A stretch of DNA of 64,000 nucleotides from Pseudomonas sp. WN033 (lineage in GTDB: Bacteria > Pseudomonadota > Gammaproteobacteria > Pseudomonadales > Pseudomonadaceae), in the NCBI GenBank assembly GCA_002287035.1, contig NSKG01000002.1:186001-250000 (forward strand), written 5' to 3'. The translations under genes and the position numbers were made by a program. Under the pieces are notes generated by a model. It saw nothing but the letters and a program-made list of their open reading frames with translations. It was not told where the DNA came from and did not search any database. This document shows, in pieces, positions 29,946 to 59,121 of this stretch; within the stretch, counting starts at the first letter, position 1, and every line of letters starts with the position of its first letter.

Positions 29946-30161
29946 TATACTCAAGTTCGTTTATTCGCGCATTAACGCTTGATGGGTTCTACTTGACTTG
30001 TTTGGCGATAAGGCGCAGAGTGAGCGCGTAGGTTTTCAAGAGATAGAGTTGTAGGCTGCAAGCGCACTTTTCAGTACGTATGTTCGTCATCTCGTAATCT
30101 TTGATTCCCACGCTAACTGAGCATTTGCTCTAGTTTTTCAATTTGATAGGAATTATCTGAA
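29946..30161 (+). promoter_or_regulatory. Candidate -10 box and long 5' leader of the cold-shock gene
   Basis: TATACT at 29946-29951 is the best -10 element in the 269-base gap before the csp start and would give an untranslated leader of about 200 bases, as is typical of cspA-type genes whose leaders act as RNA thermosensors. No strong -35 is visible at 17 bases. A second possible -35, TTGACT, lies at 29993. Confidence 0.45.
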
Positions 30162-30368
30162 ATGGCAACTGGTACTGTTAAGTGGTTCAACGACACCAAA
30201 GGCTTTGGCTTCATTACTCCGGATGGCGGCGGTGACGATCTGTTCGCCCACTTCTCTGAAATCAAAGTACAAGGTTTCAAGTCCCTGGCCGAGAACCAGA
30301 AGGTGTCTTTCGACATCACTACTGGTCCGAAGGGCAAGCAAGCTGCAAACATTCAGATCATCGGCTAA
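30162..30368 (+). CDS. Cold-shock protein, CspA family
   Basis: A 68-residue single-domain OB-fold RNA chaperone that melts RNA secondary structure. RNP1 is KGFGFI (13-18) and RNP2 is DLFAHF (26-31); the N-terminus [20 protein letters not shown] is typical. AGGA precedes the ATG by about ten bases, in an A/T-rich context. A strong terminator follows 16 bases later, so the gene is monocistronic. Whether it is cold-induced or constitutive cannot be told, but the long leader favours post-transcriptional control. Confidence 0.95.
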
Positions 30369-30384
30369 TTGCTGAGATTTGAAT

Positions 30385-30413
30385 AAAAAAACCCGGCTCC
30401 GGCCGGGTTTTTT
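30385..30413. terminator. Rho-independent terminator of csp
   Basis: AAAAAAACCCGGC then a short loop then GCCGGGTTTTTT. It is symmetrical and directly downstream of the cold-shock gene. Confidence 0.92.
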
Positions 30414-30567
30414 GTGCCCGTCTTTCAGACCATGCACACGCATCAAAAAACACTCGCCCTGAACTCTCTGACAGCGTACCCTATGGGCCATTGAATCCAG
30501 GGCCTGCACGACGCACCATGCCTACCTGCCGGGCCCGTTACCACGTAGTTTCCAAGGGGTTCGTACA

Positions 30568-50334: not shown

Positions 50335-50367
50335 GAGGGTATTTACAAATTACTGCGCTCGGCTTAG

Positions 50368-50538
50368 GGAAACACTGATTAAATCAGTTCGGTGTTGGCC
50401 CAATTGTCGCTGACCTGTTCTGGACACGCCGTGAACCCATCCATGGGGGCTTGGCGATGCCCATCCGGGGCATCGACAGTCCAGAACAGGTCAGCGCCAA
50501 CCGGGCTACTGGGCTGGTGTGCAATTAATCAGTATTCC
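50368..50538. mobile_element. MITE-like element, copy 1 (171 bases)
   Basis: The left arm starts GGAAACACTGATTAA and runs through CTGACCTGTTCTGGAC. The right arm starts GTCCAGAACAGGTCAGCG and ends ATTAATCAGTATTCC, so the arms are inverted over about 60 bases. Both arms match those of the element at 58542-58842. The core (about 50430-50477) carries two small hairpins (CCCATCCATGGGG and GATGCCC..GGGGCATC) and encodes nothing. It sits between convergent cmoB and the thioesterase gene. No clean flanking direct repeat is visible (TTAG versus CTTT). Confidence 0.72.
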
Positions 50539-50552
50539 CTTTTGGACTGCGC

Positions 50553-58482: not shown

Positions 58483-58502
58483 GCGGTGTGCGCTCTGAGC
58501 GA

Positions 58503-58530
58503 GTCACGGGCAGGTTCATTTGCCCGTGAC
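58503..58530. terminator. Hairpin after the chemoreceptor gene
   Basis: The ten-base perfect stem GTCACGGGCA/TGCCCGTGAC with an eight-base loop lies 20 bases after the chemoreceptor stop and just before the mobile element. There is no T-tract, so the efficiency is uncertain. Confidence 0.5.
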
Positions 58531-58541
58531 ATGCTCATTAC

Positions 58542-58842
58542 GGAAACACTGATTAAATCAGTTTCGGTGTTGGCCCAATTGTCGCTGACCTGTTCTGGAC
58601 ACGCTGTAAATCCCCTCCGGGTCCGGCCAACCGATCACAGATCGGTCGGCGTTTGGCTGCACACGAAGCATGCTTCGTAAACGCTTGCCTCACCCCTCTA
58701 CGCTCTTAGATGCCATCCGACCGCCAGGGATGGCGGAAGTGTCGAAAATGCAGGAGCAATTTTCGACACTGGCATCTAACGGTCCAGAACAGGTCAGCGA
58801 CAACCGGGCTACTGAGCTTGCGTGCAATTAATCAGTGTGTCC
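58542..58842. mobile_element. MITE-like element, copy 2 (301 bases) with TTAC target duplication
   Basis: The left arm begins GGAAACACTGATTAA. The right arm ends ATTAATCAGTGTGTCC, its inverted counterpart. A 22-base perfect inverted repeat lies inside the arms at 58579-58600 and 58782-58803. TTAC flanks both sides (58538-58541 and 58843-58846), consistent with a 4-base target duplication. The core is non-coding and unrelated to that of the copy at 50368-50538. It contains a 16-base palindrome ACGAAGCATGCTTCGT (58663-58678), CCGATCACAGATCGG and a nested hairpin module. The right TTAC overlaps the stop codon of the ComEA-like gene. Confidence 0.78.
58706..58779. repeat. Nested hairpin module inside MITE copy 2
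   Basis: Bounded by TTAGATGCCA (58706-58715) and its inverse TGGCATCTAA (58770-58779). Inside are a GCCATCC/GGATGGC hairpin (58712-58735) and an 11-base perfect stem GTGTCGAAAAT/ATTTTCGACAC (58739-58769). The 74 bases could form a cruciform with two arms. No such module exists in copy 1. Confidence 0.65.
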
Positions 58843-59121
58843 TTACTGCAGACTGATCCGCTCGCGATTACGCTCGACAGTGGCCTGGCCGATGCCCTTG
58901 ACCCCGGCCAGTGATTCGACCGATTCGAACGCGCCGTTCTCATCACGGTAGGCAACAATCGCCTGGGCCTTGGACTCCCCAACCCCCTGCAACACTTCGG
59001 CAATTTCCGCGGCACTGGCGTGGTTGATGTTGACGACCGGGCCAACCGACTGTTCGGCCAAAGCCGGCACAGCAACCCAGGTAGACATGACGAACATAAC
59101 TGCGGCAAAAAGTTTGCGCAT
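58843..59121 (-). CDS. ComEA-like helix-hairpin-helix protein
   Basis: A 92-residue exported DNA-binding protein. The signal peptide is MRKLFAAVMFVMSTWVAVPA (cleavage near ALA-EQ). The mature part holds the paired HhH motif: VVNINHASAAEIAEVLQGVG, then SKAQAIVAYRDENGAFESVE and LAGVKGIGQATVERNRERIS. ComEA-type proteins bind incoming DNA in the periplasm during natural transformation; related proteins also occur in non-competent species. ATG 59121 has GAGAGGA upstream. The stop codon TAA lies within the TTAC flank of a mobile element. Confidence 0.88.
   Translation of the reverse strand: MRKLFAAVMFVMSTWVAVPALAEQSVGPVVNINHASAAEIAEVLQGVGESKAQAIVAYRDENGAFESVESLAGVKGIGQATVERNRERISLQ

Follow-up and report, generated by a model that had tools for sequence, protein, structure and literature searches.

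Two elements in a 64,000-nucleotide stretch of a Pseudomonas sp. WN033 contig (the whole stretch analysed, here called the window) share nearly the same inverted arms and differ strongly in the length of what lies between them. They raise the question of whether such arms recruit unrelated structured modules or whether a single family is seen in two forms. A sequence-only reading had proposed the former, a cargo-swapping repeat family with unrelated hairpin cores. The two elements (Table 1) are copies of one miniature transposon-like family with the same conserved double-hairpin core.

Table 1. Coordinates of the two elements and their parts in the window (position 1 is the first base of the window).
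Feature	Position	Strand	Basis
Element 1, MITE copy, short form	50368..50538	+	whole-element matches across own genome
TTAG, YTAR-type target left of element 1; right side CTTT, no match	50364..50367		sequence
Left terminal repeat GGAAACACTGATTAA, element 1	50368..50382	+	
Inner arm left, element 1	50398..50425	+	
53-nt core, element 1; GGA-loop strand is minus	50426..50478	-	
Hairpin 1, element 1: CCCATGGATGGG on minus, with CATGGATG	50436..50447	-	
Hairpin 2, element 1: GGA in loop on minus	50455..50475	-	
Inner arm right, element 1, 89% complementary to left	50479..50506	+	
Right terminal repeat, element 1 (2 mismatches)	50525..50539	-	
Element 2, 301-bp long form	58542..58842	+	
TTAC target duplication left of element 2	58538..58541	.	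sequence
Left terminal repeat, element 2	58542..58556	+	
Inner arm left, element 2	58573..58600	+	
Long variant of hairpin 1, element 2 (limits approximate)	58608..58697	-	
Hairpin 2 left side, element 2: TAGATGCCATCC	58707..58718	-	
51-nt insert in hairpin 2 tip, element 2; GGA loops on plus strand	58719..58769	+	
Hairpin 2 right side, element 2: TGGCATCTAACGG	58770..58782	-	
Inner arm right, element 2, 93% complementary to left	58782..58809	+	
Right terminal repeat, element 2 (1 mismatch)	58828..58842	-	
TTAC target duplication right of element 2	58843..58846	.	sequence

The general order of an element is terminal repeat, 28-nt arm, 53-nt two-hairpin core, arm and terminal repeat, with short spacers between them, and element 1 is the ordinary short form (171–172 bp). 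Much of the initial description holds. The left halves (58/59 bases) are a single inserted T apart, a few positions separate the right halves (60/61 bases), and both elements have 28-nt inner arms at the places stated. No ORF of at least 100 aa overlaps either element, and arms plus core give a strong RNA fold in each (z −9.2 for 50398–50506 and z −10.2 for 58573–58809). The cores do differ in length, at a computed 53 and 181 nt as against the about 48 and 180 given before, but they are not unrelated, as had been claimed: both start with ACGC[CT]GT[GA]AA, and each contains a hairpin 1 as well as a hairpin 2 with a stem of the GATGCC type. The extra length of element 2 sits in the hairpin tips. 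Its hairpin 1 exceeds the short form by about 77 nt, a variant shared with other copies, and its hairpin 2 has a 51-nt insert at the tip; an insert of the same type occupies the same tip in two other genomes (L356, L399), on different stems. The end GGAAACACTGATTAA has seven matches with up to three mismatches in the window against 0.6 expected, four of them being the ends of the two elements, and a count of seven was reached in 0/100 shuffles. Directly before element 2 (58496–58537), after an ORF read as a chemoreceptor gene, lies a terminator-like inverted repeat of 17 nt with a loop of 8 nt.

The window is part of contig C12 of its own genome, G000 (4.16 Mb, 23 contigs), in which whole-genome searches with each element gave 90 and 60 matches, many to the arms alone. 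From 41 fetched stretches, 30 short-form copies were picked by a core regular expression and aligned over 137 columns with few gaps. A covariance model built from these copies returns 86 rows in G000, equivalent to about 50 places, as a place often appears in a second row for the opposite strand. Hairpin 1 occurs mainly in CCC, TAC and long forms, and hairpin 2 on two main stems. The initial reading had set against cargo swapping a single ancestral core with simple deletions; the 30-copy alignment shows one ancestral core genome-wide, yet the cores vary by modules. Two wider sets, of 183 and 230 copies, were restricted to copies with paired arms, unpaired ones being dropped; loci of the 230 were found by model, pattern or DNA similarity.

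Judged by its ends, its 4-bp target duplications and one true empty site, the shell of the element is an IS5-type MITE. As in IS5-family MITEs, the 15-bp terminal repeats resemble those of ISs of the genus, the target duplication is a 4-bp YTAR and there is no ORF of 100 aa; unlike them, the element carries a conserved, covarying RNA-like core that is present far outside the MITE with other arms. Identical 4-base flanks were seen by eye in 8/46 rows (one copy twice), seven of them YTAR and one TTAC, that of element 2. At C5:44114 a 74-bp form lies between two CTAA in G000, and in G042, the sister species, CTAA occurs once, marking a true empty site. IS5-family transposases (NF033581, 313 and 334 bits) are encoded in ISs with similar ends in the same-genus genomes G040 and G046; PF05598 has no match in G000 or G042. 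Both ISs (L546 in G040 and L548 in G046; IS5_4 transposase) have one end that is 1–2 mismatches from the 15-mer, and CTAG stands on both sides of the one in G046.

Some copies appear to have lost the interior. At C17:77031, G042 has a full 173-bp element from which the hairpin is missing in G000, with the junction at a TGGC repeat, and in another 74-bp form the junction is apparently at CTGA. These arm-less 74-bp forms look like later deletions at differing 4-base direct repeats. As the arms differ greatly among copies, their formation anew by inverted duplication of the target flank at insertion was considered; it is not supported, given the narrow arm length (22–31 nt in 206/230 copies, the lower limit being partly set by the finder), the sharing of arms by related copies and the deletion-like appearance of the 74-bp forms. 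Insertion of the core into ready-made palindromes likewise finds no support in the empty sites, with one exception: G042:C1:1538600-1539600 (L271) contains a short palindrome of terminal repeats alone at the locus where G000 has a 175-bp element (C17:238866-239040).

The core has a wider distribution than the shell. The covariance model matches in 23/38 genomes, own included; it matches in 5/5 genomes of the genus, picked because earlier searches had shown copies, and in 4/4 picked for a pattern match. Under strict filters (E 1e-6), the core was found in 28/143 genomes drawn over the class, own included. A pattern of its left half occurs in at least 118 stretches of genome records, with Stenotrophomonas, Xanthomonas, Marinobacter, Microbulbifer, Halopseudomonas, Rheinheimera and Shewanella among the genera represented in the 80 listed. 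Genomes hold from tens to over a hundred dispersed copies. Carriage on plasmids or phages was rejected because a blastn search with one 65-base core gave no match there, a weak test with so short a query. In two places, model matches of alternating orientation recur every ~185 bp in a BIME-like manner (G020:C1:1786876-1787573 and G016:C12:37704-38561).

Within the core, GGA is present in 180/181 hairpin-1 loops of the 183-copy set on the minus strand, a figure that is partly biased since part of hairpin 1 was prescribed by the last search pattern. It is also present in 175/182 hairpin-2 loops over 73 different stems, where pattern bias is smaller. The sequence CANGGAYG, quoted as the RsmA motif in a passage of PMC11837529, occurs at least once on the GGA-loop strand of 228/230 cores (twice in 148, once only in 80, not at all in 2) and never on the other strand; letter-shuffled cores contain it in 33/4600 cases. 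Two-motif cores have a GGA–GGA spacing of 20 nt in 137/148. Excerpts of the literature describe the high-affinity Rsm site as an ANGGAX hexaloop on a stem (PMC4005645) and a CsrA dimer as bridging two sites 10–63 nt apart, best above 18 (PMC7652899). The high-affinity form C-ANGGAX-G is found in the hairpin loops by sequence only, and pairs of predicted sites lie at bridging distance, 82/230 cores having fewer than two motifs. Loops, motif and spacing together match the published motif and bridging data, and so the core is a predicted dual RsmA/CsrA site. The GGA loops of the tip insert of element 2 are on the opposite (plus) strand, which was counted against this prediction. The elements resemble the CsrB and RsmX/Y/Z sponge RNAs in having several hairpins with GGA in ANGGAX-type loops; they differ in being dispersed in many copies per genome, with no Gac box or terminator found. 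A Gac-box-like site lies upstream of 1/224 copies with enough flank, and a run of five T follows the 3′ arm in 1/224 (4 on the other strand), so the elements are not obvious sRNA genes; this too weighs against the prediction, as do the cores with fewer than two motifs.

Outside the own genome, most arms have little in common with the window's, yet they are usually paired. One Marinobacter genome, with eight loci fetched, yielded six printed copies with six different 28-nt arms, five fully paired and one with two mismatches. Arms of fewer than 12 paired nt were seen in 16/89 pattern matches (the search was ungapped, and some matches are cut by contig ends). Within the G000 set, 20/32 pairs change on both sides, in 92 such cells (0/500 shuffles), and pairing amounts to 91.9%, as against only 26–41% in slid structures. 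Between G000 and G042, the arms at C12:483762 differ by five compensated and no one-sided changes, and those at C17:241523 by three compensated and one one-sided, although at the latter locus the cores agree to only 68%, so that two different copies may be involved.

The remaining mismatches are strand-asymmetric. Among the 230 copies, all retained for paired arms, 315/6272 arm cells are mismatched: 173 G.U and 27 A.C, as read on the core minus strand, and 115 others. With one copy per arm cluster (100 clusters), G.U outnumbers A.C by 85 to 13 (p 4e-14); 54 clusters favour G.U, 7 favour A.C and 39 tie, and the G.U excess is present in all eight genome groups. As mutation in either arm would give G.U and A.C equally often, the asymmetry points to selection on one single strand. 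By gene context, the G.U:A.C ratios are 40:6 and 22:5 in the two tandem orientations and a weaker 37:14 in convergent ones. The asymmetry therefore does not track transcription of the neighbours, which was rejected as its only cause. With its fixed loops, free stems and strand-specific wobble, the core looks like an RNA under selection, yet here it resides in mobile DNA. The explanation tentatively preferred here, somewhat short of probable, is that of one family with IS5-type ends whose conserved core would act as a dual RsmA/CsrA site in RNA of the GGA strand (here minus).

A rival explanation holds that the folded GGA strand is a single-stranded DNA intermediate of a REP-like, non-autonomous element, which some enzyme would recognise through its hairpins, and that the GGA loops serve as protein contacts in transposition and have no part in regulation. 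It is unlikely; the gene context is one of the arguments for it. Contexts were taken from ORF calls made for this analysis, with 165/230 copies classed (37 far from genes, 21 at edges and 7 inside left out). With codon-scored ORFs, 64 copies have a convergent and 10 a divergent context (raw counts, uncorrected for intergenic background), and the copies are thus mainly downstream of genes, as REPs are. A cruder longest-ORF count, later replaced, had not found divergent contexts scarce (11 vs 15 convergent) and had placed 16 copies inside genes. The GGA strand shows no bias towards the strand of tandem genes (45 agree, 46 disagree), which tells against the RsmA/CsrA prediction, and the lack of such a link also favours the single-stranded DNA reading. 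Folded single-stranded DNA would tolerate G.T wobble as well, and IS200/IS605 elements operate by way of single-stranded DNA hairpins (PMC6006769). The placement downstream of genes, with some opposite pairs and alternating rows, resembles that given for REPs in portions of PMC3733652. Against this reading, the model has no match at any of 30 Y1-transposase loci of the genus (30 of 77 listed places, ~1.5 kb on each side), and mobilisation by RAYT/Y1 enzymes was rejected on that count. The places listed for G050 (38) and G042 (44) show no replication-strand bias either, with the origin assumed or scanned, and the arms are so unlike within one genome that maintenance in place is likelier than recent copying. 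If the core is nevertheless a single-stranded DNA substrate, a yet-unfound mobility system is implied.

The match between arms might also arise without selection, through intramolecular template switching (quasi-palindrome correction) in elements that are otherwise inert MITE debris. The scarcity of one-sided intermediates beside many double changes is in keeping with such a process, and the deletions of the interior, with 4-base direct repeats at their junctions, are suggestive of slippage at palindromes. Template switching should nonetheless leave G.T and A.C in equal numbers on either strand, contrary to the cluster counts above, and it fails to explain why the GGA of the hairpin-2 loop is kept over so many stems. 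It is quite improbable.

Comparison with the sister species shows what changes in place. Of the 63 elements and fragments listed for G000, 42 could be located in G042 by matching flanks on both sides, and 25 of the 42 show an identity of at least 80% in one orientation (C18:443674 was added for its shared ends). Elements 1 and 2 are at the same loci there and are identical over 182 and 311 compared bases, respectively. At 4/25 loci the element is inverted and its flanks are unchanged: C1:452811 (96% identity after turning), C20:34059 (89%), C18:151494 (a 74-bp form, 81%) and C18:443674 (70%, with a different core type as well); the less similar of these may represent independent insertions at the same site. 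Hairpin 1 is long in G042 and short in G000 at C12:545399, which is 95% identical elsewhere, and at C12:483762, an older copy (82%). At C18:443674, G042 has an inverted CCC/B core and G000 a TAC/A core. The different cores at these three loci and the recurring tip insert mark the hairpin tips as real points of change, and exchange of modules among variants of one core is likely. What survives of cargo swapping is module change of this kind, not the capture of arbitrary cargo by recruiting arms. That the arms take up unrelated structured modules is very unlikely: the different cores in G042 and the presence of the same tip-insert type in three genomes could be cited for it, yet the cores have their inner ends and GGA loops in common, as variants of a single core, and ordinary gene conversion between copies fits equally well.

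Under the preferred explanation of a dual RsmA/CsrA site in an IS5-type shell, an IS5 transposase would move the shell, and the core would be transcribed by read-through from the 3′ end of the neighbouring gene. Dimers of RsmA/CsrA could then bridge the two loops of the core, with the long outer stem keeping both hairpins apart from the mRNA. Many copies might jointly titrate RsmA/CsrA or mark 3′ ends, and inversion would set whether the GGA strand is transcribed. A bolder version, in which transposon-seeded dual RsmA/CsrA decoys flip in place between on and off states and act together as a phase-variable control, spread over the genome, of a global RNA regulator, is improbable. If the elements do bind RsmA/CsrA, each change in copy number and each inversion would retune a global regulator. 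The spread of the core outside the MITE is a point against the preferred explanation, which leaves it unaccounted for.

Among annotated RNAs, the closest likeness is to the Yersinia sRNA Ysr224 (Rfam RF02770), whose consensus GaCGCcGuaAAuaCauCCaUGUAgGCuCG..CaUCCcuGG has the same core in the same order when aligned to L148. The strand represented by the Ysr224 model is, however, the complement of the GGA-loop strand. A scan of five sources with Ysr224 gave matches in L148 and L331 only, scoring 26.6, 23.8 and 19.3 bits where the cut-off is 70, and none in L061 and L071, the window's own elements, or in L196; strand, low scores and the missing match in the window count against the RsmA/CsrA prediction. 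Long-hairpin miRNA families outscore Ysr224 on the stem alone. Part of a review places Ysr224 among the most prevalent annotated sRNAs (PMC9029176). If the core binds RsmA/CsrA, some sRNA annotations, Ysr224 among them, may need re-reading as repeat copies. No description of the family, or of dispersed CsrA-binding repeats, was found among the titles and abstract openings in listings of 5–15 papers each from openly accessible literature.

REPs offer a second comparison. Sections of PMC3733652 describe them as tagged palindromes downstream of genes with GT pairs in their stems, and report REP units or dimers inside longer palindromes in three species. The elements share with REP/BIME and with CGTC- or GTAG-tagged REPs the intergenic paired hairpins, the position downstream of genes and the opposite pairs. 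They differ in having no general GTAG tag, in their conserved loops on free stems and in the absence of the core beside the Y1 loci tested. No GTAG tag is common to the cores; one hairpin-2 subtype has CGTAGATGCC, in which TAG belongs to the stem, and the other subtypes are without it. In a comparison with CGTC REP dimers, which have CGTC tags, 8–9 bp stems and 4–5 nt loops, the elements show CGT with one variable base on the outer side of both hairpins, and their stem lengths vary.

Several observations lie beside the family itself. One Y1 transposase gene of the own genome (L417, G000:C18:39269-39511 with flanks) has several copies of a GGGAGTGTCGCGCGCC..GCGCGACAC-type repeat on both sides, perhaps its REP-like partner, and pieces of a repeat similar to this type adjoin some MITE copies. 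A viral contig (L612:4985-5075) contains a 91-bp element whose two terminal repeats are the same but whose interior differs, possibly a MITE of the same kind in a phage. At gathering level, Rfam finds only cspA and a tRNA in the whole window, the cspA thermoregulator RNA being located at 30038–30416 with 92.2 bits, above the Rfam cut-off.
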